From contig OX442317.1 in the NCBI GenBank assembly GCA_949358305.1, forward strand, positions 10,856,186-10,916,185: DNA of 60,000 nucleotides. The letters run 5' to 3'. The notes under the pieces were generated by a model. It made no database searches and was not told the DNA's origin. It worked only from the letters and a program-made list of their open reading frames with translations. Positions 36,954-60,000 of this stretch are shown here, in pieces; the first letter of the stretch is position 1, and each line of letters begins with the position of its first letter. The DNA comes from Strigamia acuminata (taxonomy: Eukaryota; Arthropoda; Chilopoda; Geophilomorpha; Linotaeniidae). The translations under genes were made by a program, and so were the position numbers.

Positions 36954-38037
36954 ATATTGTCAAAACAACAGTATTTACAGATGTTTACATAGATGTTATG
37001 GAATTCCTTTGATTACACTTGATTGGGGAGAAATTTAGTGACTCTGGTCTGCAAGGTCTGAAGACATTCAGTAACACTTTCAAATCATTTAAATTTGTTC
37101 CAGTTGTATGAAATGGTGCTCTGGGCACGTCCACTACAGTGGGGGATAAAACTAAGTTAACAAACACATGTTGATTCTAACGGCTGTATCTCGGAAAAAA
37201 AGAGAGGAAAATTAATGAAATTTTAACTGGATACTTGTACAACATCCTACTTTATTCAACTAAAATTTTATCAAAATCTATCCATTAGTTTCTGAGAAAT
37301 AAATTTTTTTGTGAAGTGACATCAAAAATTAAAAGGCAAAAGAAAGTTAACAAACTCTGTGAACCATCGAAAAACGTTACAACAATGTTTGTGTCAACAA
37401 AAATATCTGTAACTGTTTTAAATTTTGTTCAATTTTTTTCATATTGCCACTAAATTGTAGCATTTTGATTGGTCTTTTCAATGAATAAAATGTTTTGTGT
37501 ATAAATTATTACTTAGACTGCAAAAAAAAATTTATTTGGAGTTTGAATTAGCTCATGTGGTGGCTGATCGAATAGTTTTTGCCAGGGGTTGTATTCATAA
37601 ACCACCCCAGTCATGGTTTTTGTTTTGCGGTTTTTGATGGTTTTTGATGTCATTCCGTTTAGAAACAGTAAAAACCGTAAAAACCAAAACATTGACCGTG
37701 CCTAATTTAAACACCAGTGCATGCAGAAAAGAGCCCTTATTAAAAATGACACCATTTATAACGAAAATGACTTAATCCTGGATTTTATAAACAAATGAAT
37801 AATACTCTTCGCTTTTGGAAGAAGTTACATGAGCCAAATTAAGTTTGTTTACAGGTTGAAATAGATGGACAACCATTTTGTTGTTCCAGGAAATCAAAAT
37901 GAATACTAATACTACATAAATGCAGATAAATGATGTTAAATATTTCACTTTTCTGAAAACTAGTGTAGTGTCCATGTAAACTTAGTGAAAGCGAAAGAAT
38001 TGGCAAGTTGTTTTATAAGTGAGAAGATTTCTCTTAC
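36954..38037. other. No gene resolved; may hold 3' exons of the minus-strand gene
   Basis: If the donor at 38037/38036 is used, further exons of the acidic-protein gene should lie here or to the left. I could not identify one with confidence. The small ORFs at 36985-37167 and 37772-37975 have no recognised domain. Confidence 0.35.
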
Positions 38038-39844
38038 CTTCATCTTGGCCATCATCATTTTTATGAAGCTTAATGCATCTTCCACTTGCATCGTCCATTA
38101 ACTTCTGGTGATTATATAGTGGTCTAGGAAGCCAGATGGGTTTTTCATTTTCAGTGCAGACTTCAGTGCATGATGGTTTCAATATCTTTGTTTTCAAAAT
38201 AGCTTGTTTAATTTCTTTAATTACATCATCTACTGATCCTTGCTTGCACAAAGGGTCTAAAAAATCTAAATTGACATTATCATCCATTTCGTGGGCGTAT
38301 ATTAATTCTTGGATTTCACCATTGTCGTTTCCATTCTTTCTGCACACACGTCTCGATATTTCTTTCTCAATTTGACTAATCTGTTTCTTTATGAGCAGCG
38401 CTGTTGGATTATCAATTTCTCTCAATTCCTCATCAGCATCACTAGCGTGACCACTGGACAAACCATCTTCAAGAACGGGCATACTGGAGCATAAGTGGTC
38501 GGAAGGAACACTCTCCTCGTTTTCATACGACACTTCACTTTCCAAGTCGTTGCTATCACAATCTGTGGTTTCTGGACTTAGTGTAAAATTACGACTTTGC
38601 CCAACTTGCTCACCCATCTCGGTTTCAGCTAGATCTTCGGTATCAGGATTTGTGCTGTTGCTTTCGGGCTCTTCGTCCAACACATCTACTAAAATTTTAT
38701 TAGTTATACAATCGTCCAAATAGTAATCAGAATAACTAGTTTTTGCCAATTCATTGATGGATTTTTTTGGACTCTCTTCGACAAACGACGTCTGGAAATG
38801 AGCCAATCTACGGCCTACATACAAACTACTGCTTTTTTTGTATTTCTGCGGTCTACTACAACCGTCGTCGGGCGCAGCTTCAGCTTCAGCTTCAGCTTCC
38901 TCATTCATTTCTTCATCAAATAGATTTTTCAAAGTGTCCTCTGTAGTCTCGTGAACAATTCTTTCTGGATGTCCCGGCCTCGGTCCATACCGTCTTGGAG
39001 AGCCCTCGTACTCGGCAATTTGTAAATTGTCGATTAACGACGAAGCCTTTTCTAATGTCCCATCTTCCGTTTCGATTGCGACAGTCAGCGGAGGCAAGTG
39101 ATCGTCATCTCCTTCGTCCGAACTCGATTCGTTAACCGCCATTGACTCGTCAATCGTTTTCACTTGAACCCAATCCCCAATATCATCATATATCACTTCT
39201 GATCCAGCAATCTGAGTTTCATAAACCACAGCTGTAGCTGTAGCTGTAGCTGTAGCTGTAGCTTCTGGCCTTTCGTACTGCTGGCACACCAGTTTCTTAG
39301 ACGTCACATCAATTTCATTTTTGCCAACCACTCGGTAATTTGAATCCAAATCTGCTTTCATTTCCCCACTTGCTTTGCCCTCTGAATTGACAGCACTGTC
39401 GTCGTTAATACGTTTTCTGGAGTGGCGGGTACGGTTTGTTGAAAAAACCTCTCGCCCACCGGCTATTTCAATTCGACTTTCCCGCAACTTAAACTCTTGA
39501 AATGAATTAATTTCCACGCTGTGCTTCTTGTTGCTTCCATCTTCTTTCTCTTCTTCGGCACAATTAATGCCAAACATTCCGTATGCACTAACCACTGACC
39601 GGTCTTCTTCGTGGCATTCATTTTTTACCGAATCCCCCAAATAATCGCCTTGTTCAAATATGCCATTCTGATCCAATACAATGTTGCCATTCTTCTCATT
39701 TGGCGCATACGTTGAACATTCTTCATTAGTAGTTTTGTTTAAATTCACGTCACTAGCGATTTTAGGTTTACACCTAGGAAATAATTGATTTATGTCCTCA
39801 TTTTCACTACTGTCTGAATTTGCAAGATCTAGGATATCTGTCAT
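38038..39844 (-). CDS. Acidic low-complexity protein, partial gene (large first coding exon)
   Basis: An ATG at 39844 opens 602 codons to a strong 5' splice site (GATGAAG|GTAAGAG); the 18 codons beyond it are intron read-through. A run TTTTTTTTAG about 50 bp upstream of the ATG could be a 3' splice site of a 5' UTR intron. The protein is Ser/Glu/Asp-rich and probably largely disordered. It has a Thr-Ala dipeptide run (195-205) from a GCTACA microsatellite, an acidic Glu-Ala run (311-324), a well-ordered-looking block NLQIAEYEGSPRRYGPRPGH (273-292), a predicted helix ALLIKKQISQIEKEISRR (482-499) and a final block WLPRPLYNHQKLMDD (571-585). I do not recognise the family. Codon use and lack of stops argue for a real host gene. 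It lies about 950 bp from EF2, head to head. Confidence 0.6.
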
Positions 39845-40792: not shown

Positions 40793-43700
40793 ATGGTAAG
40801 TAAATATCGAGTTTTTGGATGAAATGAATATTAATAGAAAGCAAAACGTGTTTGATAACATGGATTTAAACAGTTAATTTGATGGATGGCGATGGATTTT
40901 AATCGCCGCTTTGAAAGTTTTTTTGTTTTTTGAACAAAGCCATACTTATTTTTTGAATTTAAATGTAAAGTGCCGACCTGTCGCTACTTATTTATTTAGT
41001 ATTATTTAGTAACGGCATGGATATATGTGTATTTGAAGATTTAAGGTTTTAAAGCGACTTTGAGCTGAGACTGAGAGACGCAGATGTATCTATCTTTCTT
41101 TCTTTCCGAAAGCATATGTAGTAGCTACGTAGTGCATCGTGGCCGAATATAACCACTTTTTTTTCGTTTTGTTTTTTGAAATAGGTGAACTTTACTATAG
41201 ACGAGATTCGGGGTTTGATGGACAGAAAGCGAAACATTCGCAACATGTCCGTGATTGCCCATGTAGACCATGGGAAATCGACGTTGACTGATTCGCTGGT
41301 AGGCAAAGCGGGCATTATAGCGGCGCAAAAGGCTGGTGAAATGAGATTTACCGATACGAGAAAAGACGAACAGGAACGTTGCATTACCATCAAATCAACG
41401 TACGTTATTTGATTTGATCTATAAATTGGAATGAATTGTATTGAAATTATTAAATTAAATTAAATGTAAATTTCAGGGCTATTTCGATGTACTTTGAGGT
41501 GGAAGAGAAAGATTTGACTTTCATTAAGGAGGAATCGCAAAAGGAGAAAGTGACAAAAGGTTTTTTAATCAATCTGATCGATTCGCCGGGCCACGTTGAC
41601 TTTTCGTCGGAGGTTACGGCCGCCTTACGTGTTACTGATGGCGCCTTAGTCGTCGTCGATTGCGTGAGCGGTAAGTTTGATTGAATGAATAGCGTTTAGA
41701 TTGTGAACCGAAATGAATGAAATTTGTCGTTAGGAGTGTGTGTGCAAACGGAAACCGTGTTGCGTCAAGCAATCGCCGAAAGAATTAAGCCGGTTTTATT
41801 CATGAATAAAATGGACAGAGCACTGCTGGAATTACAATTGGAGGCGGAAGATTTGTTTCAAACGTTTCAACGTATTGTAGAAAACGTGAACGTTATTATC
41901 GCTACGTACGGTGACGAAACCGGCCCCATGGGAGATGTTAAGGTGATAAAGGCAAGAGAAAAAAAGAAGCGTTGTTCGATTTTGACTTGTTTGTTTCGCT
42001 TAAGGTTGATCCGAGTCGTGGTAACGTCGGCTTCGGTTCTGGTTTGCATGGCTGGGCGTTCACGTTGAAGCAATTTTCGGAGATGTATGCGGAGAAGTTT
42101 AAAATCGATATCGAGAAGTTGATGAAAAAATTATGGGGCGACAACTTCTACAATGCCCACACTAAAAAGTGGTCAAAAACTCGTGATGACGAAAACGGCT
42201 ACAAACGCACGTTTTGCATGTTTATTCTGGATCCAATTTACAGAGTAAGGGCAATTTGCAAATTGTAATGTAACCGTATGTAATGTAATGTAATTTGTAA
42301 TTGAACAACAAACAGGTTTTCGATGCGATCATGAATTACAAAACAACGGAAATTCCGAAACTGATTGAGAAGTTGAACATCGTTCTGAAGGGAGAAGACA
42401 AGGATAAAGATGGGAAAGCTTTGCTCAAGGTAAAACAAACCTTATCTTATTTCGACATAGGTACAAGATTAACTAACATTTGGTGTTAATTTTCATTGAA
42501 TTGTTTCAGATTGTGATGAGACAGTGGTTACCGGCCGGTGAAGCACTTCTGCAAATGATAGCCATCCATTTACCGTCTCCAGTAACGGCGCAGAGATATC
42601 GTATGGAAATGCTGTACGAAGGACCTCACGACGACGAGGCGGCAGTAGCCATTAAAACGTGCGATCCGAACGGACCTCTGATGATGTACATCTCGAAAAT
42701 GGTGCCGACCACCGACAAAGGCCGCTTTTATGCTTTTGGTCGGGTATTCTCGGGTACTGTGGGTACTGGGCAAAAAGTGCGAATTATGGGACCGAATTAC
42801 ACACCGGGAAAGAGAGAGGATTTGTACGAAAAAGCAATTCAAAGGTGAAATCTATTGAAATAAGTTTGCATGAATAGACTAATGTTATTATCACGTGATT
42901 GTGCAATATAGAACCATTTTGATGATGGGTCGCTACACCGAGGCGATCGAGGATGTGCCGTCGGGAAATATTTGCGGCTTGGTAGGTGTTGATCAATTCC
43001 TGGTGAAAACTGGAACGATATCGACATTTAAGGATGCCCACAACCTTAAGGTAGGAAGGGAAAAAATGATACTTTGATGTATGTTTTTCTTTTCAATTGC
43101 ATTTATTTATTTATTTATTTATTTTTACAACAGGTGATGAAGTTTTCTGTCAGTCCCGTCGTGCGGGTGGCCGTGGAACCTAAAAACCCTTCGGAATTGC
43201 CGAAACTGGTTGAAGGGTTGAAGCGTCTGGCCAAATCGGATCCTATGGTTCAATGCATCATCGAAGAATCGGGTGAACATATTGTCGCAGGAGCTGGCGA
43301 ATTGCATTTGGAAATCTGTTTGAAAGATTTGGAGGAGGACCACGCGTGCATCCCGATCAAAGTGTCCGATCCAGTCGTGTCTTACCGCGAAACTGTTAGC
43401 GAGGAATCTAGCATCATGTGTTTGGCCAAGTCGCCAAACAAACACAACCGTCTTTTTATGAGGGCCCAGCCCATGCCGGAAGGCCTTGCAGAAGATATCG
43501 ATAAGGTAATAATAGAATATGTGAATATGTGAACATGCAATATGTTATTTCAATTGTCGAATCGTTGAATTTGATTTTCAGGGTGACGTAACTGCCAGGG
43601 ACGATTTCAAGGCGCGCGCTCGCTACTTGACTGAGAAGTATGATTACGATATTACGGAAGCGAGGAAGATTTGGTGTTTTGGACCAGACGGAACTGGACC

Positions 43701-44514
43701 CAACATCCTAGTGGATTGCACGAAGGGTGTGCAATACTTGAACGAAATCAAGGACAGTGTTGTAGCTGGCTTCCAGTGGGCCACAAAAGAGGTTTGTTAT
43801 ATGAATAGTTTAATAGTATAATTGTGTAATGAATCTATCTCTTTCATTTGCCCAGGGTGTTTTGGCTGAAGAGAATTTACGCGGCGTCAGATTTAACATC
43901 TATGACGTGACTTTGCATGCCGACGCAATTCATAGAGGTGGTGGACAAATTATTCCAACTGCTCGTCGGGTCTTGTATGCGTGCATGTTGACAGCCGCTC
44001 CTCGAATGATGGAGCCAGTTTATTTATGTGAAATTCAGGTACGGGAGAACAGAAAAGCTGGATAGAATAGGATAGTAAAATGTAGTGACTGATGATTTTC
44101 TTGTTTGTAGTGCCCTGAAAACGCAGTTGGTGGAATCTATGGTGTTTTGAATAGAAGGCGCGGACATGTATTTGAGGAAGCGCAGGTTCCTGGCACGCCA
44201 ATGTTTTTGGTCAAGGCTTACCTGCCTGTTAACGAATCATTTGGTATTGAATATTGATATTGCTTTTTCTTCGTTTTATATCAAGTTTGCGCTCATCAAT
44301 GATTCACTTTTTTGCATTAGGTTTTACTGCTGATTTACGTTCTAATACTGGCGGTCAAGCGTTTCCACAGTGCGTGTTCGATCACTGGCAGATTTTGCCT
44401 GGTGATCCCTTCGATGACAAATCGCGTCCCTGTCAAGTTATTACCGATGCTCGTAAACGCAAAGGATTAAAAGAGGGCATTCCGGCGCTGGATCAATATT
44501 TGGATAAATTGTAG
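40793..44514 (+). CDS. EF2: Elongation factor 2
   Basis: Thirteen coding exons with GT-AG introns: 40793-40795, 41185-41399, 41477-41670, 41734-41942, 42005-42244, 42316-42429, 42510-42844, 42912-43050, 43134-43505, 43582-43791, 43856-44038, 44111-44243, 44321-44514. They add to 2,541 nt, or 846 residues, the normal length. The first coding exon contains only the ATG. The product is the cytoplasmic GTPase that moves tRNAs and mRNA through the ribosome. Seen: P-loop AHVDHGKST (26-34), Thr57 in the switch segment [10 protein letters not shown] (a known EF2-kinase target region), DSPGH (108-112), NKMD (162-165), and the diphthamide loop [11 protein letters not shown] with the modified His expected at 703. 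All introns but the first (389 bp) are 60-85 bp. No damage seen. Confidence 0.98.
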
Positions 44515-46145: not shown

Positions 46146-46848
46146 TACGTGTATAACTGATTAACTTCGTTCTTTAAGTCATGTGAAACATTTTTATAAG
46201 TTAAAACAACTTGATTAGATTCTTGTTCAAATTTACCACCAACGACTAATAGCATCATCTAGGAGCGTTCCTGTCTCTTGCTCGAATAGCACAAAAAACG
46301 AGGTTGCTCAGCAAAGCTCAAAGTGAAAACCAAGTTTGGGTTCGTCCGGCTTGGCTAGGATACAAACACCGTGTAACTCCTTAAAATCGCGCACATACAT
46401 CAAGATTTTGTTACGACGTTACGCCTTGTCAAAGGAAAAATCGACAAAATGAATGGCAATATGATTTAGTTGCAAACTTGAGTAATTTTTAAACAAAGTC
46501 GACGAAATGAAGCGACTTCATGAGGTTGACCGGCAGTCTGGTCAAACTTAAACTCGCGGTACATTTCATGCTGCTTAAAGCCGGGTAATGCAGTAAAATA
46601 TTTTTCTCGAGCCATTTCTTTACTACATTCTATGGAATTGCATAAAATTTTAGAAGAATTGGTCAAGATAACCACTCTCTGAAAGTTGGCTAAACAAAAC
46701 AAAATGTATTTTTCACATACGGTAATTTATTTTTACATTAATACATCACAATATATCTAATTCTGGATTAGTTATTCAATATAAACATGAAATCAAGACA
46801 TTGCACCCTGAGATTTGGAAAAAACAAACTATGTAATTTGATTATCTG
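46146..46848. other. No gene resolved
   Basis: A minus ORF of 78 codons (46466-46702) and degenerate coding-like sequence around 46300-46500 might be an old transposon fragment. I could not place either in a family. Confidence 0.35.
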
Positions 46849-49003
46849 TGTGACGAGAAAACAGGGTATGAATAAATTATGGAACATTGTTTAGGAATAT
46901 CTAAGGGATCAGGTTAGGCTGCGCTGCAACGTCAGTTGCGGCAAAGGCGGGAAAAGTATTCTTGAGTGACGTGAGTCACTTGAGAGGGAAAAAAGGGGGT
47001 CATTGGTAAGTGACCACAAGTAGTTTTAATAACTTTAGAGGCAGTAAGGTAAATAAAGAGTAAAATGATTGTAATAAAACATCTGACTTCGATTAACACG
47101 CGACAGCATAAGTTGATAGAGTGTAAATGAATAAATGTATGAATGAGCCAAACACAAGTGTGTAATATAAATGAATAAACTAATCTAATTTAATAAGTCC
47201 AAATGAACAAACAATCCAAAATATATATGTATACAAATATGTACAAATATATCGGCGCTAGTAACAAGGCCTCCAATACAAGTTGGGGTAATATAAAGAC
47301 ATAAAAATATACTTAAATACGCTGACACACTTTAGACTGTTGGGTGCATGAGGAATTCATGGCCCAAGGCTAAGAGGGGAAGCAAACAAGAATAAAGAGT
47401 AAGCGCTCTTTTAATTGCGCTACACGCATGTGTAAAGGGGGAATTAAAAGGGGCAATAAAATGGCGGCTCAATCAATGTTTCTTCGACTGCAATTCGGTT
47501 CGGCTGCAATTTTGGTATTAACAGGTGTCGTCACAAACATATATTGGCCTTGAAGAAGACCAATGGAGCTAAAACTTAATGGTTATTAATGCAAGGGATT
47601 AATAAGAGTGCAAACTCTTATTTAATCGGTTTGGTGGGTTTGAAGACCCAAGAAAATGGCTAAGAGAAAAGCAACACAGCCATTGAGTGTCAAATTGAGG
47701 CGGCAGAGCCTTCTGCTAAACTTATTAGGCTTAACATTGAAGATTAACCATTATTCAACAAGACCTGGCTAACCGTGTGCAAGGTGTGTTTTGAGCGAAT
47801 GCTCTAGCGGCGCAAAGGACAGCTACACACATTGAGGTAGTCACTGATTGCTCAGTGCTAAGTATCTATGTGTAGCAACTTTGATAAGAAGGATTGTAAC
47901 ACATTGAGATGCAAATCAATTGCTTGATTTGAAGTGCTATGTCACAATAACCATAGGATGAGGTAAGGGGAATTTCATATCAAAATGATATGGTTCCAAT
48001 GAAAATGAGTATAAGGAGTGATTAGCTAACAGTTGACAATACAAAAGTAAAAGGTAACCACTAACAACTCACTCTTGATTTAAGAGCCATTGAGGGCTTG
48101 ATGAAATTCATCAAGACTTGCTAACTAATAATTCAAGAGTGTAAATGAAACATGGCTTACCTATTTACACGAATCCACGGTCAACAGTCATTGAGTCCAG
48201 TTGTTCAAAAGGGTTGAGGGATTTTGGCGGGAAAATCCACCAACAAAGCCAGGGCGGCAAAGTTGGAGTAGAGGCAACAAAACCTATCTTTTCTCCTTCA
48301 TCTTCACCTCCAGTGCCATCCTGCTTCCCCAGCTGTCAACTAGAGGAAGCTTTACACCGTTGCTCAGTAATTCAATACCATATAAGCTCGAGTGTTGGTC
48401 GTAGGGCACAACAACTAAACCAGCGATAGTGCGTCAAAACTTGACGCACAATATAAAGTCAAACCAACAAAGGCAAAAACAGAATATGTGTATAGTCAAA
48501 ATAATGGGCAAAATCCTAGAGGAAACTCTGTGCAGAGTTTATATAGACAAGTGAAACAATACCTCATTGGAATGGAACCAATGGGGTAAATAAACCAATA
48601 ACAACAAGGGTCTTGCCTCATTAGTATGAGGCGGGAATAAAACCACAAAGCACATACCTCATTAGTATGTGGTGAAGGAGGGGAGACCAAGCGTGGCGAG
48701 GTCAAGAGTACTCTTGGCCTTGCAAGGTCATACTGGTGTTGATAAACAACACTAACACTGAGTTGGCATAGAGCGGCTCCACTGAGCAGTGAACCAAGAT
48801 GGCGACCAAGGAAAGAAAGAATACTCTTTCAACTGTAATATAAACATAACTTATGACCCGTGAGCCTTAGGGCTCACTTATATGGTCTAGGACTCATATA
48901 AAGCTTAATCAAATAACGTAACCAAGCATACAAAACTCTGAATAATAAATAAAGTATTTATTCGATCTCCAATACAAACCTACGGTAATTTGGTACCGTC
49001 ACA
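46849..49003 (-). repeat. Possible long LTR (TGTGACG...CGTCACA ends)
   Basis: The segment begins TGTGACGAGAAAACAGGG and ends GGTACCGTCACA, so its tips are a 7-bp inverted repeat of LTR type. It lies where a 3' LTR of the minus-strand outer gypsy element would be expected. Against it: no polypurine tract adjoins 49003, no short duplication is visible, and the hairpin-rich character continues past this border. A second copy to the right of the window would settle it. Confidence 0.3.
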
Positions 49004-49470
49004 CGTGCTCCAGGAAAAGTGCATTCGTCCCACGTATGCATCTAATATACCGGAAACCTAATTGAAAGACTATGATATAAGGAGAAAATTTTTATTTGGG
49101 GAGTAAAGACTCCCCTAAAAACTCTTGGGGTGCGGCCTGCACCCCTACAATTGACTGGGTGTCATAGCACCCGTAAGGATAATTTGTTACAGTTTAAGAG
49201 ATTGGCAACCGAGGTCCAGAAAGAGCGGACAAGCAGCAACAGGCTCAAGTTCGACTGTTTCAAAATACATGCTAAAATAAGGTTAAGAAAATCAAAATTA
49301 GGTAGGCATCTCGGCATCGAGATGGTTCCGGGGTTGAAGACGTGGACCGGCCAAATGGTCCAACAGTAATTACTCGGCCCCGGAAACTAGTTCATTAGGA
49401 AGTAAAAATAATACATTTGAAATTTTAAGACAAATAGAATTAACCAGGCGTTACCTGCTGTTCGCAGGGA
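46920..49470. other. Dense tract of short perfect inverted repeats (hairpin array)
   Basis: At least 37 different short inverted repeats follow one another. Examples with positions and arms: 46965-46980 AGTGAC; 47583-47605 TTATTAAT; 47601-47622 AATAAGAGT; 47822-47876 GCTACACA enclosing 47842-47857 CACTG; 47912-47931 CAAATCAA; 47976-47992 CATATCA; 48097-48115 CTTGATGA; 48139-48170 GTGTAAAT; 48219-48238 GGATTTT; 48429-48449 GTGCGTCAA; 48523-48540 AAACTCTG; 48615-48632 GCCTCAT; 48703-48716 CAAGAGT; 48860-48877 GTGAGCC; 49098-49115 GGGGAGT; 49127-49145 GGGGTGC; 49307-49324 CATCTCG. Stem sequences are all different, loops are mostly 0-10 nt, and some hairpins overlap or nest. No ORF. It could be a structured RNA, an LTR or UTR of the adjoining retroelement, or the product of template-switch mutation. 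Confidence 0.8.
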
Positions 49471-49792
49471 ACATACGTCAAACCGAATTACACAATAATA
49501 TATAAAATAAAACGGATATTTATATATATCACACAGGACTAATATCAGCAGAGTTACATTGCACGAAAACCTTAAATTAACATACACAAAATAATTAAGC
49601 AAGAAAACACAAATGGTAAACATACAGACCAATAATGGAGATCTCAATGTCTCTTATGGCCCGCAAGGTCACAAAATTACTAATTAATACAACAAAATGG
49701 AACTTATCACAAAACAAACAGAAATACAACAAAATTTAAACATGCACAGAATCTGAACATGAAGTAAAGGCGATACGCATAATCTGATACGC
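49471..49792. other. No gene seen
   Basis: AT-rich spacer between the hairpin tract and the cysteine-rich ORF. The hairpin density drops here. Confidence 0.5.
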
Positions 49793-51403
49793 CTACACGT
49801 CTTGAGCCATGTCGGGGGCAGGTGAGTTGGGAGCGGTAACATAGACATTCATGTCGCAAGGGGGTGTGTGTTCGGCCTCCACAGAAAGGTTCAACGGCAC
49901 ATTGGGAGGATCTACCGACAAAATTGGAGAAGTTGGCCGAACGGCCGTAGTAGTCAAATTACTCATGGAGTCGGTTAAATCCTCGACTTGAAAAAAGTTG
50001 AAGGGACGCTCGGGAATTTGTCCGGAGAAAACGGGTGCATTTAAACCTATTTGGTAATTGTCAAAGGACTCGATAAAGCGGACAGGATCTCTGGCAAAGG
50101 CCGACGGGATGTGCTGCATCCACACCCTTGTCATCGTTCTATTCAGAATAAAGACGCGTTCCCAACTGGCGTCCCATACATCACATCGCAGGTGATAGTG
50201 TGGATTAAGGGACGTGGCCTCCACAATTAACTTCTGGGCCCTCCTGAGTTTGTTAATTAAAAACACATACCCATCATAGCGCTTGGTGATGCTAAAAATA
50301 GCCTTTCCCACCTTGAAAAGAAATTCGCTCAAAGTTGGGACCAATCTACGAGCGCGCGCTAACTGACGGTCGGGAGCAAGCAAGTTAATCTCACAAGAAA
50401 ATTTGGGTAAAGCAAAATCCTCCGGAATCTCGACATCCACGTAAGGGGACATTATTACGCGTTCGTAACTTTCGGGTTTAACGGAACGCTGCGCAGCGTC
50501 AGCCTTAGCGGCTGCCTCTAACAACTTGACGTGAGCAAGGGCCGATGCGAGCGCATCAGAAAGTAACGCGATTTGTTTGTCTTTTGCGTCAGCGGAGGGG
50601 GCTCTGGGTGCAGAGCTACCTGCGGGCTCAGCCAAAACTCTATCTAAATGCTCTTTAATCGTTTTGATGTTCCACTCGGCATCGGAAGGGGAGTTTTTAC
50701 CAAAAGTGAACAAATTAGTGGCGGGTTCCGTAAACAACTGCCCATGTGGGGACGTAAGTTTCTCGCACTTCTCGCAAAGGGACCAGCGGCGGGCGCTATT
50801 TGACCATGCGGTCATGACAACTATATTCTTGATGCCTGCGGTCCAGGGAGTTCCTCGCGGACGTTTGCCATCGCCTAAACAATTTAGGCACGCTACTAAG
50901 TGCTGCCCCCCGACCGCACCACACAACCAACTACAGCCTGTGCACAGGGGGCACGACACATATATACTAGTGTCAAATCTAGGTGTAGCATGCGGGCGAC
51001 CGTGCTTCACATCCCAGTCACATTTGTCTCGTCGCTTATTAAGTAACTCAACCGTTTCGGCGGAAGCATTTGGGCGAAGTTCGCGCCAATCGTAACTATG
51101 CGATAGGCCAAGCGATAAAAGGGGGGTAACTGTAGATACAGTGGGAGCCGTTGATTCGGGGCGTACAAAATCACCATAAGGGTTTGTAGGCGAATTAGGG
51201 GTTTGAAAGCGAAGTGCACCACGAGCATTACCAAAACTGCCTCGAGAGGGCGGTGGAGTCGACTGTTCATCGGAAAAGTTCTTGGTGATCTTGACGGGTG
51301 GGTCTTCTGTTAAGGAGTCCTCCGATCGGGCAGACAGCATGCGTTTCTTAGGGTCCGGGTTCATTCTTGAGGGCCGAGATCCGAATGGACGCCTGGTATA
51401 CAT
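49793..51403 (-). CDS. Cysteine-rich ORF, candidate third ORF of the outer gypsy element
   Basis: The first ATG in the frame is at 51403; the frame itself is open from 51448, giving 536 or 551 residues (numbering below from 51448). The N-terminus is Pro/Ser/Arg-rich. A cysteine cluster follows: C166, C169, C172, C176, H183, C187, C190, then C225 and C228 (CPLCTGC, CLNC, CEKC), which looks zinc-binding. Residues about 288-322 are Ala-rich and probably helical (DKQIALLSDALASALAHVKL). The remainder (345-490) looks folded, and the end is Pro-rich. No signal peptide or membrane span, so not an obvious envelope. No family recognised. Once the younger insertion is removed it lies about 1.2 kb downstream of the outer pol on the same strand. 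The long unbroken frame with good codon use suggests selection or youth. Confidence 0.65.
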   Translation of the reverse strand: MYTRRPFGSRPSRMNPDPKKRMLSARSEDSLTEDPPVKITKNFSDEQSTPPPSRGSFGNARGALRFQTPNSPTNPYGDFVRPESTAPTVSTVTPLLSLGLSHSYDWRELRPNASAETVELLNKRRDKCDWDVKHGRPHATPRFDTSIYVSCPLCTGCSWLCGAVGGQHLVACLNCLGDGKRPRGTPWTAGIKNIVVMTAWSNSARRWSLCEKCEKLTSPHGQLFTEPATNLFTFGKNSPSDAEWNIKTIKEHLDRVLAEPAGSSAPRAPSADAKDKQIALLSDALASALAHVKLLEAAAKADAAQRSVKPESYERVIMSPYVDVEIPEDFALPKFSCEINLLAPDRQLARARRLVPTLSEFLFKVGKAIFSITKRYDGYVFLINKLRRAQKLIVEATSLNPHYHLRCDVWDASWERVFILNRTMTRVWMQHIPSAFARDPVRFIESFDNYQIGLNAPVFSGQIPERPFNFFQVEDLTDSMSNLTTTAVRPTSPILSVDPPNVPLNLSVEAEHTPPCDMNVYVTAPNSPAPDMAQDV

Positions 51404-51848
51404 CTGGTACGTAACTTCCGGTGGGTAAAAACAAGAAACAGTCAGCAAAAGTTAACCAAATCTTAAGCCTACGAAAGTGTGTTGATCGACTCATGACAGA
51501 ACATAATAACTACGAGTAGGTGAAATAAATTTACAGGGGAAAAATAATCGTTTTCATACAGACAGGAAATAAACCGTTCGCTAGGGACATCTAGGGATAA
51601 ATTTTAGAAAAAGGTCTGAACAGATCAACGCCACCTGGCGGTAAAGATGAGCAAAAGGCGCCATTTTCTAACGGAGCGCGTGGTAGAATTACGCCGAAGT
51701 TTTTAAACTGCCTAAATTTTTACGGGAAATTACGCGAATTTGATTTATAACAGCTCCTAGCGAAACATTCGCTTAAATACAAATAAATTTCATATACCGA
51801 ATTAAATCTTAAGGGCTAAGTGGCGGGTAAATGTGCGTGTCATGTGAC
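51404..51848. other. Outer-element spacer, left of the young insertion
   Basis: No gene. Ends at the GATCC target site (51849-51853) used by the young gypsy element. Confidence 0.5.
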
Positions 51849-51853
51849 GATCC

Positions 51854-52039
51854 TAATGTGTTCCTATCGTCGAATAATTGATGAAAGTGGATGAAATTAT
51901 GAGTGGTCAAAATAAGCAGCCATGTCTTAGTTGGAAATTAACATAAGTGTTTTAATAAATTCAAAAAGTACAGAGGGCGCTCGCGTAAGCGGGCGCGTCA
52001 TAAAATAACGTGAATACAAAATGGAGTCAGGACACTCCA
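51854..52039 (-). repeat. 3' LTR of the young gypsy element
   Basis: On the element strand it starts TGGAGTGTCCTGACTCC and ends GGAACACATTA. The sequence is identical to the 5' LTR at 56664-56849. Unusually short for the group, and ending TA rather than CA. Confidence 0.9.
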
Positions 52040-52182
52040 TCATCCCCTTAATTGGGAACCAACCAAGGGAGCAATTCAATACAAAGTAAATTCAAAAGTT
52101 ACAATAAACAAAATGTAAAGTCAAAAGATCGAATTACAATAAAAGATTCAAACAATTACAAAACTCAATACATTATTTCAAT

Positions 52183-55100
52183 TTACGAGAAACCGTAAAA
52201 GTCCGTTTGTTTTCTTGTCCTTGTTGGCCGTGGAGAGCGAGCAGCTTGCGGAGGTGGCGGAAGCGCAGGAGGCGACGGCGGTAGAGGAGGAAGCAACGGG
52301 GCAGGAGATCTCGGAGGTGAGTTTGGAATAGGAATATTAGGTTGCGGCGAATTAGGAGCAGGGAGTTGGGGTTGAGCTTGTACAGCTGGCGGAATCTCAG
52401 TGGAGGTCTGGGGCATAACGAATGGGCCCGACTGACGCTCATCCCCTTCAATTGAGCGATACGGTGAAATTGTCGATCGTTTCCGCAACTGGTCAATGTG
52501 TCTCGACCACAAAACTCCATTCGCAATCTCGATAGCATACGTGGTGGAGGAAACCTTCTCCTTGACGACCCCGGGGATCCACTTGTCCGTGTGGCGATAG
52601 TCGCGCACGTACACCAAATCGCCGACATCGAAACTGCGCGCCGTTTCCATAAGTGCGGAGTCCGGCAACAAGCGAGGGTTGAGCAGGTGAAGCCGCGTGC
52701 GCATCGTGCGCTGCAGGAAAACATCAGCGGGCGTCAGCTTGGTCGTGGCGTGAGGTGTCGTCCTATAGGAGAAAAGGAACTGGCGGAGGGAATCAACGAG
52801 GGAAAAATTCAGATTCACAAATTTTTGCATTTGTCGTTTAAAAGTTCCGACAAATCCTTCGACGGCTCCATTCGTAGCTGGGTGATATGGTGGTGAAAAG
52901 GTGTGGCGGATGCCATTTTCCTCCAAAAATTCTCGAAATTCGAATGCAGTGAACTGCGGACCGTTGTCCGAGTGCACGTGAATCGGGAGGCCATAGCGAC
53001 TAAACCAGTCTTCCAAGACTGCAATCGTTGCAGCTGCTGTGGTGGTCGTCATCGCGTTCACCTCGCACCATTTCGATTTGGCGTCGATTCCGAGCAGAAA
53101 TGTTTTGCCGAGGAATGGCCCGGCGAAGTCGATGTGCAGTCGACCCCAGACTTCTTCAGGAATCGGCCATCGTACAGTCGACGTTCGGGGTGGATCAGGC
53201 AGTGTCCGCTGACAGGCGTCGCACGCACGCACAACGCGCTCGATATCGGCGTCAATCGCCGGCCACCAAACAGTGGAACGCGCCAACGATTTTGTGCGCA
53301 CAATTCCAAAGTGACCTGCGTGCAACTCGATTAAAATCGAGGCGCGCAAGTCCTCGGGCACGACCAACCTATCATTGAGAAAAATAAAGTCGTTAAAAAG
53401 GGAGAAAGCATCTTTGTGCTTTTGGAATTCCCGCAACTCGGGCTTGTGTTTGGGCCAGCCATCGCGCACGCAACGAAGGACTTCTTGCAAAATTGCATCT
53501 GCAGCATAAGCTGCTTGCAACGATGGTTTGGAGACAGGGAAATCTGAAATCGAGACTGAAAAAATATTGTTAACCTCGAAGTCAAAATCTTCGGACAAAT
53601 CCACGAGTGGTTGAGGGTTGCGCGAAAGACCATCCGCAATGGCGTTGTCCACTGCCGGCAAATGTTCGATCAAATAATCGTATGCCGACAAAAAAATGGC
53701 CCAACGATGCAGACGAGCGGCAACCACTTGGTTACATCCCTTTTTGTCTCCAAAAATAGACACCAAGGGCTTGTGGTCAGTACGAAGGATGAAGCGTCGG
53801 CCGAACAAGTAGTGATGAAACTTCCTTATCCCGTATACGATGGCGTATCCCTCCCTCTCGATTTGGGCGTAGTTCCGCTGAGCAGCCGACAGCAAAGACG
53901 ACGCAAAAGCAATTGGCAAATGGTGTCCGCTCTTGTCGCGATGGGAAAGGAAGGCGCCAACTCCCACGGGGGAGGCGTCCACGGTCAAAAACACTTCTTT
54001 CAACTGGTCGTAATGGGTGAGGGCCGAATCAACCGACACGGATTCGCGCACTTTCAACCAGGCGGCTTCGTGCACATTCTCCCACTTCCAATCGACGTCG
54101 TCGCGCGTCAAGCGATACAGCGGCTCGAGGAGAGTTGACAAATCTCGAATAAATCGGCCGTAGTAATTTATAAGTCCGATAAAAGACTTCAACGATGTTA
54201 CATCCGTTGGACGCGTCGCATTTTTAAGTGGGGCGATTTTGGATGCAATTGGGGCAATACCGTGCTTCGAAATACGAAAGCCCAAGAAATCAATCTCGTC
54301 TTGCAAAAATTGGCACTTGCCTCGATTTAAAGTGAGTCCAGCGCCATCAAACTTGCCAAGTAAACCGTCCAAATTATGAAGATGAACCGAGTCCGAGCGT
54401 CCAGTTACCGCCGAGTCGTCGATAAACGGCTGGGTATCGCCAACATCTGCCGTCAAAATATCCATTTCGCGCTGGAAAATTGGTGGAGCTGTGGAGATAC
54501 CGTAAAAAAGACGATTAACGCGGAAAAGGCCCAGGTGAGTGTTGATAGTGCAAAGTTCTTGGCTTGCTGCGTCCAACTCGAGCTGATTGTACGCCGAGTT
54601 CATGTCAAGCTTCGAGTACGATTTACCACCCGAAAGTTTGGTTGTGACATCAGCAAAAAGGGGCAGCGGGTACGAACAAGGCAGCACGGCTTTATTTACT
54701 GTCCGATTATAGCAGCCGGCGATTTTAATAGTTCCGTCGGACTTGCGCACGTGCATGATCGGGGTTGCCCATTTTGACGACGCGACAGGCGTGATGATTC
54801 CTAAGTCCTGGAGTCGTCGCAATTCCTTCTCGAGTGCGGGTTTGACCGACAGTGGCACCGGGTAAGCTTTCAAAAATATAGGTGGAAAATCTTTATCAAC
54901 AGCTATACTTACCGGTGCCACGTTGTACCGGCCAATTTCATCGCGGAAAACGTGTCGATGTTTGTCCAAAATCGTTCGCAACGTCTCGAGATCAGCTGCA
55001 CTGGCGGAGCATTGCGGCGCAGCATCTTTAGCTGCCGCAGCCACAGGAGGAAGCGATTTATACGCAGGGGCAGCAACAATCGACGGGAACGACGGCGCGT

Positions 55101-56481
55101 CTTGGGGCGCAGTAGGCACTTCCGCCTCGCGAGTTGGAGCGACGGCGGCGGCAAGTATATCGCCCGTGTTGTCAGTGTTCGTTGCCCGACGTTGTTTAGC
55201 ACGACGTCGTGCGGATTTCGACGGAATGCCAGCGGAGGCGCGATAAACGACGGCGCGCAACGCCGCACCGGCCGCATACAGCAGGCCGAGTTCGTCCATC
55301 CAATCCCTGCCCAACAGCGGAACTTGACCGTGCTCGGCGACACATAACGGAAGATGATACTTCTTTCCGTCGTATTCAACCGGCACAGTGCAAACTCCAG
55401 CCATGGGCAATGCGTGGCCGTCATATGAAGACAGCTCGGTGTCAAGTGACTGCAACTGAAATTTCGAAAAATATTTAGCGTGCATCTCGCGACTGATTAT
55501 TGTCGCTCCGGCTCCGGTGTCCAGTTCCATCCAGAGCAGCTGGTCTGCCACGCGCAGCTCGAGCACCAACGGTTTGGTGTGACGGATCGAAACGGCGTTC
55601 ACCGCGGTCGGGGTTTTAATTTTCTCCGTGCGCACGGTGTAAAAAGTCAGCTTTCTCGGGGCGGACACGGTCGTGTGATGCGCGGACGTAGACGATTTCG
55701 ACGCGCGGCAGACGGGCTTGATGTGGCCCTCGACGCCACAGCCGTGACATTTGGCTGTGCGGAAACGGCACTCGTCCTGTCGGTGTCCAGACCTGCCGCA
55801 GTGTTTACACTTTTTCGTTTCGTGCTGCGATTTGGTGTTGTCCGACTGGTGGTGTTGGCCGCCGGAGCCTCTCGAGGGACGTCTACCGTTTTTCTGCGAA
55901 TGAAAAGAGGATTTGGAGGAGTTTCCGGGTTTATTAATTTGATGGATCGTTGATGGTGCGTCCACGAAACTGGAAACATCTGCCCCAGCAATCTCTGCAG
56001 AAGTGGCCGCCTCGAGCGCCTTGGCGAAGGTCAAGTCCTTTTGCACATATAAGGTTTCTTGTACTTGCCGCATATTTAGGCCAACGATGAACTGATTTCT
56101 CATTTCGTCGTCCTGATTATCCTCGAAATTGCAGTATTTGGTGAGGGAATGAAGGGCCGCCGCGAAGTCGCTAACAGTCTCGCCCTTATTTCGTTTACGG
56201 TTGCGGAACCGCACAATTTCGCCTTGCGCAATGGGCTTCGGTTTTTGATGTTTTTCCATCAGGTCCACTATTTCCTTGTACTTCATGGTCGTGGGGTTCT
56301 TTGGCCGGGTCAAATCGACGATTTTCGCGAACGTGGCCATTCCCACGCACGACAAAAGCGTGCTCACTTTGTCGGCGTCGTCGACGACTTTGTTGCAGGC
56401 GAACACGCAACTCATTTGAAGCACGTACGTCGCCCAGTCGTCCTGCGGGTTGTATTTCTCGGGGGTTCCCGACAACGGCAT
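52183..56481 (-). CDS. Gypsy Gag-Pol polyprotein, 1,432 residues, single ORF
   Basis: The ATG at 56481 is the first in frame. In order: capsid-like Gag (10-165); two CCHC knuckles (C225-C238, C245-C258); aspartic protease DTGAGAT (321-327); RT with KLDMNSAYNQ (catalytic D626) and FIDDS (686-690, D688 and D689); RNase H acids D835, E876, D902, D949/D950 region; integrase zinc H1054, H1057, C1087, C1090; core acids D1118, D1172, E1208; and the GDLVYVRDYR C-terminal segment. A proline-rich tail (about 1360-1415) replaces any chromodomain. No stop or frameshift. Departures from the usual RT consensus: KIAGCYNRTVN where GDY is common, RLFYGIS where LPFG is common, and FIDD rather than YVDD/YLDD. 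Gag and Pol in one frame means no frameshift is needed, so their ratio must be set otherwise. Confidence 0.95.
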   Translation of the reverse strand: MPLSGTPEKYNPQDDWATYVLQMSCVFACNKVVDDADKVSTLLSCVGMATFAKIVDLTRPKNPTTMKYKEIVDLMEKHQKPKPIAQGEIVRFRNRKRNKGETVSDFAAALHSLTKYCNFEDNQDDEMRNQFIVGLNMRQVQETLYVQKDLTFAKALEAATSAEIAGADVSSFVDAPSTIHQINKPGNSSKSSFHSQKNGRRPSRGSGGQHHQSDNTKSQHETKKCKHCGRSGHRQDECRFRTAKCHGCGVEGHIKPVCRASKSSTSAHHTTVSAPRKLTFYTVRTEKIKTPTAVNAVSIRHTKPLVLELRVADQLLWMELDTGAGATIISREMHAKYFSKFQLQSLDTELSSYDGHALPMAGVCTVPVEYDGKKYHLPLCVAEHGQVPLLGRDWMDELGLLYAAGAALRAVVYRASAGIPSKSARRRAKQRRATNTDNTGDILAAAVAPTREAEVPTAPQDAPSFPSIVAAPAYKSLPPVAAAAKDAAPQCSASAADLETLRTILDKHRHVFRDEIGRYNVAPVSIAVDKDFPPIFLKAYPVPLSVKPALEKELRRLQDLGIITPVASSKWATPIMHVRKSDGTIKIAGCYNRTVNKAVLPCSYPLPLFADVTTKLSGGKSYSKLDMNSAYNQLELDAASQELCTINTHLGLFRVNRLFYGISTAPPIFQREMDILTADVGDTQPFIDDSAVTGRSDSVHLHNLDGLLGKFDGAGLTLNRGKCQFLQDEIDFLGFRISKHGIAPIASKIAPLKNATRPTDVTSLKSFIGLINYYGRFIRDLSTLLEPLYRLTRDDVDWKWENVHEAAWLKVRESVSVDSALTHYDQLKEVFLTVDASPVGVGAFLSHRDKSGHHLPIAFASSLLSAAQRNYAQIEREGYAIVYGIRKFHHYLFGRRFILRTDHKPLVSIFGDKKGCNQVVAARLHRWAIFLSAYDYLIEHLPAVDNAIADGLSRNPQPLVDLSEDFDFEVNNIFSVSISDFPVSKPSLQAAYAADAILQEVLRCVRDGWPKHKPELREFQKHKDAFSLFNDFIFLNDRLVVPEDLRASILIELHAGHFGIVRTKSLARSTVWWPAIDADIERVVRACDACQRTLPDPPRTSTVRWPIPEEVWGRLHIDFAGPFLGKTFLLGIDAKSKWCEVNAMTTTTAAATIAVLEDWFSRYGLPIHVHSDNGPQFTAFEFREFLEENGIRHTFSPPYHPATNGAVEGFVGTFKRQMQKFVNLNFSLVDSLRQFLFSYRTTPHATTKLTPADVFLQRTMRTRLHLLNPRLLPDSALMETARSFDVGDLVYVRDYRHTDKWIPGVVKEKVSSTTYAIEIANGVLWSRHIDQLRKRSTISPYRSIEGDERQSGPFVMPQTSTEIPPAVQAQPQLPAPNSPQPNIPIPNSPPRSPAPLLPPLPPSPPALPPPPQAARSPRPTRTRKQTDFYGFS

Positions 56482-56663
56482 AATTCACGGCAAAAAAAAA
56501 AAAATTTCGATGAAAACGGCACAAAAACTCACGATACAAGGTGCTAAGCCTAACGGTCAACGCGTGGTCAGCAAGTCCAATTTGACATCAAACGACGGGA
56601 AAAACACACAAAAAGTCACAGAAGATCGTGGATTCTTTGTTGAAATTCATACCTCGTCGCCAA

Positions 56664-56849
56664 TAATGTGTTCCTATCGTCGAATAATTGATGAAAGTGG
56701 ATGAAATTATGAGTGGTCAAAATAAGCAGCCATGTCTTAGTTGGAAATTAACATAAGTGTTTTAATAAATTCAAAAAGTACAGAGGGCGCTCGCGTAAGC
56801 GGGCGCGTCATAAAATAACGTGAATACAAAATGGAGTCAGGACACTCCA
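56664..56849 (-). repeat. 5' LTR of the young gypsy element
   Basis: Identical to 51854-52039. The internal boundary at 56663/56664 is followed, on the element strand, by T and the primer-site-like TGGCGACGAGG. Confidence 0.9.
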
Positions 56850-57683: not shown

Positions 57684-60000
57684 CTAACTGAGATTTTGCG
57701 AATCGAGACACGTGACGAAGTCGTGCGCATAGCGCTTGTTTGCAACACGTGGTCGCTTCGAAGTTCGGGGTTCGACGTCATCACATCTCGGCGTTACAAC
57801 ACGCGTGGTAAGCGGAGTGACGTCAGTCGCGAGTTCCATTGGTTCCGCTGGCTCCGAACTTGGACTTGGTAAATTTTCATCGTATTCCATCCAGCTGGGA
57901 GTTGGATGTGCCGAATCGGTGCCGTGTGTTTGGTTTTCGACCCACTCTTCAATCGGGTATTCCGGTAAATAGGGGGTGAGATGCTTGATATTAATAGAAT
58001 TCTCTATTGAGCCATCTTCTAACTTTTCTAAACGATACGCGGTACCGCCTAATATCTTTATAATTTTCCAGGGTCCGTCTCGTACTTCAGCCATTTTTGC
58101 TGAAAACTGCCGGTCGGCATTTGACAAGTGATGCGTCTTTCGCCAAACTAAATCGTCTAAATCGAACGTTCCGATCCGGTATTTCTTGTGATGTATTTTC
58201 CTATGTTTCTCATAGTTTTCTTGAATTTTAGCGAACATCACGTTTTGTGCGAGGCGAATTGTATTCTGAATCGACGCGATATACTTCTCGGGATCGTTGG
58301 GGTCGAGTTTGACGGAGTTATTAAGCGTGTTTGGATTCCAAGGCGGCGTAACTATCCTTCCAGAATTTAGTAATAAAGGTGTTGAGCCTGTTGCCTCCGA
58401 AATTGACGTACGAGTTGCAAATGCAAAATCGTGGATGAGTTCGTGCCAATGTTTGTGCACGTCAGTGAATAATGCCACCATCACCTTCAAATTCCTGTTG
58501 GCTCTTTCTGTCGGGTTTGCCGACGGGTTGTAGGTGCTTGTGTGTTTTACTGTTATGCCCTGTCGTTCACAGAATTTTCTGTAAATCAGGGCGCAGAATT
58601 GGGGACCATTATCGCTTATAATCTTTTTGGGTGAGCCATGTCTACATGCGACCTCATGTAGCTTCTCGACGATTATTTTTGCCGAAGCTGTGTGTAAAGC
58701 GAATACTTCTATATATTTTGTAGCGTTATCCATAATGACAAGTAACCATTTAAACTTATTACCGGGTTTGGGACCCATTAAATCTACAGTGACCGTTTCC
58801 CACGGAAATGTCATACCTAAAGGCACATATTCGCCAGCAAGGGGCTTTCTTTGTAGTGGTTTGTACATTTGGCAATGTTGACAACCCGTCACATAACCAC
58901 GTACGTCACGGGACATACCAAACCAATGATATAACATTTTTGCTCTGTCCAGAGTCTTTGCTACACCTGCGTGGCCTGCCATAGGGTGCCCGTGGCACGC
59001 AAATAACGCACGCTTAAGTAAACTGCGAGGCATTGCAGCCTTGAACCCATTTCCAGTATCTAATAATTCCTCGTCAAATGTCGGAGCGAATCTCGCAAGT
59101 AAATCGCCATCCATCATGTAATGGCGACACAATTTTTTAAAATCTCGTAAATGCAATTTATTATTTTTGGGCAGCTCATCTTTAGAAATGAACTGAATTA
59201 TGTCATACAAAAAGGGGTCAGCACGTTGTGCGTTTATAATTTCGTCGCGGGAGGGCGGAACTGTCTTTAACGCATCTGTGAGTGCAGACATTAGGGTTTC
59301 ATTGCGTTTGCAATTTTTGTCGGTCTTTTTTGTTGTGTCTAAGAAATTTAAAATGTCAGTTGAAGTTAACTCGTCAGGGCTACCATCCCCCTGTGTTTCA
59401 ACAGAATTGACATACTCAATTCTGAGGGAACACAACTGTTCTTTAGTTTCTTTCGAAACACTAACGCCTTTATTTCTATTTCCGGTCCACTCGGGCCAGT
59501 ATTGGGTCACTTCAGTGTGTTCTACGTGGTCAGTAGACGGGATATGCTCTTCAGAGAGCGGGGCTCGGGAGAGGGCATCGGCAATTTGGTTATATTTGCC
59601 CTGGCGGTATTCAATTTTGAACGCGCCAGACTGTAGTCTCGTGGCCCATCGACCAAATCGTCCAGAGGGTTCTGGCGACGTCATAAGCCATTTGAGTGCC
59701 TGCGCGTCACTTTCCAGTTGAAAAGTGGTATATTCGAGAAAGGGGCGAAATCGGTCGACTGCCCAAACAACAGCCAAACATTCAAGTTCCGGGGTATTGT
59801 AGCGGACTTCCGCTCCTTTCAACACGCGGCTAGCGTATGCTGCCGGTTTTAAAACCTTTTTTCCATTTAATTCGACTTCTTGCATGAGGACAGCTCCTAA
59901 ACCGTCATGACTGGCATCAGTCTGAATGACGAATGGCTTATTCAGCTCTGGGCGGAGTAAACAACCATCAGTCATAAGTTTTTCTTTTAAAGTTGCGAAC
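57684..60000 (-). CDS. Ty3/gypsy Pol, C-terminal part (outer element), runs off the window
   Basis: Open from the window edge to the stop at 57684; the first ATG inside (59975) is internal, because the frame continues upstream as ATLKEKL. Numbering from there: RNase H (FVIQTDASHDGLGAVL, D20; E63 or E65 region; D90; D133 in IADALSR), integrase zinc domain (H330, H335, C365, C368), core acids D398, D455, E490, then FDLDDLVWRKTHHLS and NSINIKHLTPYLPEYP of the C-terminal domain, with a Ser/Pro-rich tail. No breaks are seen in 763 codons, so the element may be fairly young. The RT, protease, Gag and 5' LTR should lie to the right of the window. Its 3' region carries the inserted 52-56.8 kb element. 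Confidence 0.9.
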   Translation of the reverse strand, partial: FATLKEKLMTDGCLLRPELNKPFVIQTDASHDGLGAVLMQEVELNGKKVLKPAAYASRVLKGAEVRYNTPELECLAVVWAVDRFRPFLEYTTFQLESDAQALKWLMTSPEPSGRFGRWATRLQSGAFKIEYRQGKYNQIADALSRAPLSEEHIPSTDHVEHTEVTQYWPEWTGNRNKGVSVSKETKEQLCSLRIEYVNSVETQGDGSPDELTSTDILNFLDTTKKTDKNCKRNETLMSALTDALKTVPPSRDEIINAQRADPFLYDIIQFISKDELPKNNKLHLRDFKKLCRHYMMDGDLLARFAPTFDEELLDTGNGFKAAMPRSLLKRALFACHGHPMAGHAGVAKTLDRAKMLYHWFGMSRDVRGYVTGCQHCQMYKPLQRKPLAGEYVPLGMTFPWETVTVDLMGPKPGNKFKWLLVIMDNATKYIEVFALHTASAKIIVEKLHEVACRHGSPKKIISDNGPQFCALIYRKFCERQGITVKHTSTYNPSANPTERANRNLKVMVALFTDVHKHWHELIHDFAFATRTSISEATGSTPLLLNSGRIVTPPWNPNTLNNSVKLDPNDPEKYIASIQNTIRLAQNVMFAKIQENYEKHRKIHHKKYRIGTFDLDDLVWRKTHHLSNADRQFSAKMAEVRDGPWKIIKILGGTAYRLEKLEDGSIENSINIKHLTPYLPEYPIEEWVENQTHGTDSAHPTPSWMEYDENLPSPSSEPAEPMELATDVTPLTTRVVTPRCDDVEPRTSKRPRVANKRYAHDFVTCLDSQNLS

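Follow-up and report, generated by a model that had tools for sequence, protein, structure and literature searches.

The 60,000-nucleotide stretch of the Strigamia acuminata genome analysed here (the window; contig OX442317.1, positions 10,856,186 to 10,916,185) carries at 46849-49003 the 3' long terminal repeat (LTR) of a Gypsy-type element of about 15 kb, which lies on the minus strand, and the hairpins crowded into 46920-49470 are real. Rather than the single uniform array described in an earlier sequence-only reading of this DNA, they are of two kinds inside the LTR, one in its U3 (unique 3') part and the other in its R (repeated) part. There is strong comparative evidence that the R hairpins form a conserved sense-strand RNA structure in the leader of the genomic transcript, whereas those of U3 look like DNA palindromes, containing inverted CCAAT boxes and a TATA motif. 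We favour, with a confidence slightly above even, a reading in which R is a structured leader RNA with a predicted intron, a masked splice donor and units that would mark unspliced RNA, and U3 is a promoter rich in DNA palindromes. Coordinates below are those of the window, and all features of the element are on its minus strand, which is the sense strand of the transcript.

At 46920-49470, we counted 17 perfect stems of at least 7 bp (loops of 0-10 nt), including all 14 listed in the sequence-only reading, against a mean of 1.6 and a maximum of 6 in 200 dinucleotide shuffles, so that composition-matched controls fall far short of the observed number. The claim of at least 37 hairpins is plausible if short stems are tallied, though chance would account for about half of those of 5 bp: there are 45 stems of at least 5 bp (24.5 in shuffles, maximum 34) and 27 of at least 6 bp (5.5, maximum 12; n = 50 for both). 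By segment of the element, the excess of stems is concentrated in U3 (7 versus 0.35, maximum 2 in 100 shuffles) and R (7 versus 0.90, maximum 5), with a weaker signal in the 0.8-kb 3' noncoding part at 49004-49792 (3 versus 0.59, the shuffle maximum likewise being 3), which holds the stems at 49098, 49127 and 49307. The same segment-wise test gave no excess in U5 (the unique 5' part of the LTR), the internal 5' leader (a segment that in this count still included the last 71 bp of the LTR), gag, protease-reverse transcriptase (PR-RT), RNase H-integrase (RH-IN) or open reading frame 3 (ORF3). From the loci and the window we extracted 28 LTRs, 23 of them distinct, and used 13 representatives, mutually 71-97% identical, with the window LTR 73-88% identical to the other twelve; all 13 are rich in stems (9-22 versus shuffle means of 1.0-1.6 and maxima of 3-5, 60 shuffles each). 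The density at this place is not unique within the window, since the 1-kb bins 13, 16, 17 and 18 hold 7-11 stems and the 48-kb bin holds 10, and the host part at 1-29000 has a general excess of short stems (91 versus 32.8), densest at 13-18 kb. Host DNA enriched in stems is what could be said for chance or base composition as the source of the hairpins, but given the shuffle results and the recurrence of the excess in 13 LTRs we regard the probability of this explanation as negligible.

The sequence-only reading had offered a multi-stem structured RNA or the LTR of an outer retroelement as possibilities, and both proved apt: the segment is an LTR, within which R has the properties of a conserved RNA of the sense strand. 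A search of 46920-49470 against the whole genome (237.5 Mb in 157 contigs) gave 47 matches, among them a second LTR copy 18 kb away at C5:10921066-10923149 and another LTR pair on C3 that spans 15 kb. The LTR, which is the same at both ends of the element, measures 2155 bp and has inverted-repeat ends, TGTGACG...CGTCACA; a 4-bp direct repeat, TCTG, lies at 46845-46848 and recurs as the first 4 bases after the 5' LTR in locus L034. With paired LTRs, TG..CA ends, a target site duplication, a gag zinc knuckle and then the order PR-RT-RH-IN, the element has the hallmarks of Ty3/Gypsy: gag with its zinc knuckle and PR-RT were identified with Pfam in locus L033, and the RNase H and integrase end of pol, also by Pfam, at 57684-59975 of the window. 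A stretch that starts with TGG occurs 2 nt after the 5' LTR, at the place for a primer binding site; no purine tract was recognisable by eye in the 57 nt inspected before the 3' LTR, a minor feature that the others outweigh. A tRNA scan of the window was negative. Downstream of integrase, the Cys-rich, 551-aa ORF3 occupies 49793-51448, and a younger Gypsy element with identical 186-bp LTRs (51854-56849) is nested between integrase and ORF3. Near-identical copies of the LTR are clustered, with five places of 100% LTR match inside 50 kb (C5, 10.903-10.952 Mb, from window position 46849 on). Abundant elements of about 7.7 kb (L021-L030 and others) carry related LTRs and gag sequence beside the 3' LTR and are perhaps non-autonomous; no ORF3 was found in the roughly 1.6 kb examined beside that LTR, and some longer elements with this LTR type carry an ORF3 relative with an internal stop (C1:18284728, C10:5653862).

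Within the LTR, U3 would extend over 48516-49003, its boundary with R being set from the position of TATATAA, and R over 47166-48515 (about 1.35 kb), between TATA and AATAAA/ATTAAA in 13 of 13 LTRs. The alignments used to examine R cover the LTR apart from the last 71 bp of U5 (46849-46919). Averaged over the 13 LTRs, base-pair probabilities on the sense strand exceed 0.5 for 252 column pairs and 0.7 for 117, compared with 11-33 and 0-3 in three column shuffles (blocks of 60). In 245 helix pairs, the alignment cells without any pair number 55, against 483 (minimum 359) in 200 tree-based simulations, and 45 pairs covary (mean 19.8, maximum 37 in the simulations) in a structure that was selected on the very sequences then scored. 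All but two of these covarying pairs (43 of 45) lie at 47540-48395, the others being in U5. For 47815-48165, RNAalifold predicts 64 pairs from the 13-sequence alignment, with 98.7% of cells paired, as compared with 35-43% when the pairs are slid out of register; 24 pairs show double changes, a number reached by none of 500 shuffles (mean 15.0).

Helix sets picked by folding favour their own strand (sense-picked helices are biased to sense G-U, 264 versus 35, and antisense-picked ones are reversed, 192 versus 61); the verdict on the strand therefore rests on a hold-out test, in which pairs predicted at a probability above 0.7 in a single sequence, with six references used in turn, were scored exclusively in relatives of less than 82% identity. 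For sense-derived pairs of R (47540-48400), 942 of 1167 double changes still pair, and the one-sided changes comprise 723 of the standard type, 225 of the wrong-strand G-U type and 592 that break the pair; for antisense-derived pairs, 525 of 760 double changes pair, and wrong-strand changes (505) exceed standard ones (390), with 647 broken. Folding z-scores over nine LTRs agree for the central part of R, being -4.66 on the sense and -1.42 on the antisense strand at 47820-47989, and -3.20 and -1.89 at 47990-48199. Elsewhere in R the two strands fold about equally well (48200-48515 and 47540-47700) or the z-score is near zero (47166-47539). The check for paired changes in homologous copies, proposed with the sequence-only reading, thus came out positive for R and negative for U3, and strand-wise folding likewise divides the LTR, with sense favoured at 47820-48199 and antisense in U3 and U5.

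The strand preference also bears on the suggestion that the hairpins are a footprint of repeated template switching. Such switching, or quasipalindrome correction, in the course of reverse transcription would produce both perfect stems and paired changes, but copying of DNA would not favour the G-U type of the sense strand, as the one-sided changes in R do. Moreover, the alignments show changes occurring pair by pair, and gag, pol and the internal 5' leader of the same RNA are devoid of a stem excess; we consider this origin highly improbable.

The U3 hairpins behave differently. None of 55 pairs in 9 helices covaries in the 13-LTR alignment, and U3, like U5, folds better as antisense than as sense (z-scores, nine LTRs). 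In the hold-out test, 91 of 176 double changes pair for sense-derived pairs of U3 (one-sided changes, 270 standard versus 157 wrong-strand) and 52 of 141 for antisense-derived ones (274 versus 249). At the same time, the palindromes of U3 contain promoter motifs. TATATAA at 48539-48545, at LTR position 448-468 in 13 of 13 LTRs, lies at a palindrome; upstream of it, three CCAAT/ATTGG boxes keep the same LTR places in all 13, and two of them form an inverted CCAAT hairpin at 48560-48590. Since compensation is absent, antisense folds are better and CCAAT and TATA fall inside the palindromes, we read the U3 hairpins as DNA palindromes. The same observations are what an account of all the hairpins as DNA palindromes, that is, binding sites none of which acts as RNA, would have in its favour; extended to R, it is contradicted by the compensatory changes and the preference for the sense strand, and we find it decidedly unlikely. 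All 13 LTRs also have an AATAAA right where U3 begins (48957-48962 in the window, LTR position 42), which is not where a poly(A) signal would be expected.

The structured part of R spans sequences resembling those of a spliceosomal intron. A predicted 5' splice site, GGTAAGCC at 48154-48161, is invariant in the 13 LTRs and has the top 5'-splice-site score in six of six LTRs scored. The predicted acceptor at 47660 (TAG or CAG before CCA, with a pyrimidine tract and TTCAATG/CTCAATG about 25 nt upstream) is found in 13 of 13 LTRs, and together these sites would delimit an intron of 501 nt (47660-48160). Downstream of it lies the putative poly(A) signal, AATAAA or ATTAAA, at 47189-47194 in the window and at LTR position 1695-1810 in all 13. 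A strand reading CUUACC (47961-47968), about 195 nt downstream of the donor GGUAAG, is the donor's predicted partner: RNAalifold pairs columns 5-10 with 206-212, a pairing kept in 13 of 13 LTRs, and 12 of the 13 have an exact CTTACC. Splice-site use, the limits of transcription and masking of the donor are all proposed here from sequence features.

Inside the predicted intron, two to four units appear to share one plan of stem and internal loop, consisting of an outer helix, a short 5' strand, a variable hairpin and the motif CUCAAUG (or CUAAAUG) entering the outer helix. The clearest, unit C (47822-47876), has an outer helix, an inner hairpin at 47838-47860, CUCAAUG at 47830-47836 and 8 covarying pairs; 98.8% of its cells are paired in 10 LTRs, and its 23 double-change cells are above all of 500 shuffles, although the number of its pairs with double changes is not (6 versus 5.0). 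Unit B (47897-47944, CUCAAUG at 47902-47908) has 3 covarying pairs in the outer helix, and unit A (48072-48139), assigned to the type by eye, combines an outer helix, an inner hairpin at 48095-48117 and CUCAAUG at 48088-48094 with 12 covarying pairs in two helices. A weaker unit D (47671-47780), also assigned by eye, has a variable insert in its outer helix, CUCAAUG at 47681-47687 and 5 covarying pairs in two helices. When a covariance model was made from unit C only, it recovered unit B in the window (E = 1.2e-5 in a search space of 3.3 kb). The LTR contains CTCAATG 5 times, against 0.16 in shuffles (maximum 2, n = 500); as the commonest 7-mer of a shuffle averages 4.8 occurrences, it is the constant position of the motif within the units, rather than its frequency, that gives it weight. 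Covarying pairs are also present between units A and B (3, in a hairpin at 47974-47994), in the helices downstream of the acceptor (6, at 47542-47627) and in two helices upstream of the donor (6, at 48323-48395).

Several observations weigh against this account of R. The pairing of the donor with CUUACC never covaries and is thus unproved, and span-limited folding prefers another partner for the donor, near 48049-48061. The start of transcription and the poly(A) site were guessed from motifs, of which AATAAA recurs at the start of U3. Across the loci, the unit-C model detects unit B in just 4 of the 13 LTRs, with E values near 0.001 in two of them, 0.12 in a third and 2.2 for a partial hit in the fourth, and it never detects A or D. 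As for the structure itself, the antisense strand is also rich in conserved pairs (218 column pairs above 0.5 and 113 above 0.7 in the 13 LTRs), as any set of perfect stems must be; perfect stems taken by themselves give a modest strand preference (800 versus 503 cells); the hold-out test includes the 592 one-sided changes that break a sense pair; and further pair types at 47815-48165 are not above shuffles (46 versus 47.7). Finally, a single clade comprises 7 of the 13 LTRs and some LTRs are apparently recombinant, so that there were fewer events than cells.

More distant relatives point the same way for part of the structure and set a possible limit to the rest. Locus L036 matches R (48249-48507) at its sense positions 3903-4154 with 63.5% identity. 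Of the 47 R pairs checked there, 24 are unchanged, 1 has a change on one side and 6 have changes on both sides, which makes 31 standard pairs; another 5 have the wrong-strand type, and the remaining 11 no longer pair. Conservation varies between helices: 48429-48449 keeps 9 of 9 pairs and 48224-48243 just 1 of 7, while the two helices at 48323-48395 have 14 of 20 pairs standard, 6 of them by double changes. The best-folding stretch of L036 (about 1800-2200 on its sense strand) is unrelated to the window LTR. Also to be counted against the proposed intron and units, GGTAAG is absent from L036 and L038, with a donor-like GGTAA elsewhere in L036, and CUCAAUG units were seen neither in the L036 DNA read around its R match nor in L038; the 13 relatives may therefore be the only carriers of the intron module. 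Another ORF3-bearing family (X, represented by L035), whose ORF3 matches in the Cys-rich part, has some 40 LTR places; its LTR, unrelated to that of the window, is likewise rich in stems (11 versus 0.97, maximum 3). In its U3 (L035:1323-2900, the LTR start being taken from match limits), palindromes are again abundant (6 versus 0.22) and include both an inverted CCAAT hairpin and one at TATA. Comparison with the one diverged relative yields just 1 compensatory pair and so does not establish conserved RNA structure for this family.

We suggest that R acts in cis to keep genomic RNA unspliced and to handle its polyadenylation, export or packaging. The conserved RNA of the leader would span a spliceosomal intron, and pairing of the donor with intronic CUUACC would mask the donor, leaving a share of the transcripts unspliced. 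The units, being placed between donor and acceptor, would mark only unspliced RNA, and a protein binding to them (the ORF3 product of the element, Gag or a host export factor) could direct this RNA to export or packaging; both the identity of the binder and the function of the units are conjectural. Because the RNA would carry R at its 5' as well as its 3' end, suppression of the poly(A) site by U1 at the donor may likewise depend on this fold.

Two other functions have to be weighed. The structure might serve mainly as a Gag packaging and dimerisation signal, the splice-like motifs being minor or unused. Such signals are common in retroelement leaders, to judge from the available literature, and relatives with gag beside the LTR and no ORF3 in the part examined retain the structure; because this would leave the invariant donor-like and acceptor-like sites of 13 of 13 LTRs unexplained, we rate it as possible but rather unlikely. 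Control of gag translation, for instance by internal entry past the leader, has in its favour that R, U5 and the internal leader would together place about 2.9 kb ahead of the gag frame. We think it improbable, as stems are not enriched in the internal leader adjoining gag (1 versus 1.8).

Under the reading that we prefer, with R marking unspliced RNA, ORF3 is a candidate for the binder. Over 249-391 residues, its frame is 95-99% conserved in three LTR families and 43-46% in two, and in the comparison with L017, synonymous codon differences outnumber amino-acid ones (49 versus 18 in 391 codons), indicating purifying selection. At least 85 matches to ORF3 are present in the genome, several of them with internal stop codons, and 38 of the 85 cover only about residues 115-244, the Cys-rich part, at 33-37% identity. 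None of 7992 protein database candidates scored, there was no Pfam match at E<=1 and no match in PDB, and the AlphaFold model is unusable (mean predicted local distance difference test score, 31.8). Frames of this Cys-rich family are often about 519 aa long, and the member searched had no database match. In L012, ORF3 is 97.6% identical to that of the window and R 80.7%, pointing to an LTR swap by recombination or to very fast LTR evolution. A more specific and tentative idea, on balance doubtful, is that the units (...UAG ... hairpin ... CUCAAUG..., in a row of four within the donor-masked intron) are a binding array through which ORF3 exports or packages unspliced RNA, making them an invertebrate-type counterpart of Rev and its response element, with relatives of ORF3 that have its Cys-rich part in common serving at least one other LTR family that is hairpin-rich and unrelated in sequence.

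As far as the available text of the cited reports goes, the arrangement is of a known kind, that of the R-region stem-loops of retroviral LTRs, which in gamma-, beta- and lentiviruses are conserved in structure (PMC2664473, PMC3601003). Whereas one to three loops are described for those R regions (PMC2664473, PMC3601003), here about a dozen R helices show covariation, and what is new is the size, the repetition of the unit, the containment of the entire predicted intron within R and the setting, a Gypsy element that has an ORF3. The closest layout is that of foamy virus, in which a splice donor in R suppresses the 5' poly(A) site via U1 and structure around the donor presumably blocks U1 at the 3' end (PMC3694450). 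A donor inside R, upstream of the poly(A) signal and present in both LTRs, is shared, here by motif in 13 of 13 LTRs; the foamy virus R is, however, 193 nt long (PMC3694450), and the one proposed here, at about 1.35 kb, would contain a whole intron with repeated units. Structured RNA that marks unspliced RNA for export is known from the stem-loop Rex element in the LTR of human T-cell leukaemia virus type 1 (HTLV-1; PMC2664473, PMC3694450) and from the export systems of Mason-Pfizer monkey virus (MPMV) and Rev (PMC10309623). The R structure shares this property, if our reading holds, with Rex and Rev response elements and NXF1-type constitutive transport elements but differs in that a general Rfam scan of 46500-50000 at E<=1 gave no match to them, returning nothing except one sub-threshold small nucleolar RNA hit, and in that ORF3 is no more than a candidate binder. 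In Caenorhabditis elegans, the Gypsy/Ty3 element Cer1, which has splice sites in its genomic RNA, exports the unspliced RNA via CERV, a 517-aa Cys-rich product of a 3' ORF, and its authors ask whether 3' ORFs of other LTR elements act likewise (PMC10309623). ORF3 too is located 3' of integrase and is Cys-rich, a likeness of position and Cys content alone; the available part of that report describes no RNA target array for CERV (PMC10309623), whereas R offers a candidate one. Our literature search found nothing closer to this arrangement of LTR RNA.

The remainder of the window contains further genes and mobile elements. The host eEF2 gene, with several exons, lies at 41185-44514; the exon tested is very similar to vertebrate eEF2, and this gene identifies the host as an animal. 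A second Gypsy element is on the plus strand at 29896-34460, with a pol frame recognised by Pfam at 31335-34460; the 446-aa frame ahead of it is probably gag, a call made solely from its position. A transposase frame of a Mutator-like element (MULE) sits between tandem arrays at 6684-8933, and a 620-aa frame at 37982-39844 contains CAGCTT/AGCTGT hexamer repeats and has no Pfam match.

An element with splice sites has to retain unspliced genomic RNA and get it exported, and for Cer1 a protein that does so is known, with no RNA target named in the available text. The element described here opens the question to testing, since it combines, in several near-identical copies, an RNA structure supported by comparison, splice-site-like motifs and a candidate partner protein; its R region would represent a foamy-virus-like layout in a Gypsy element.

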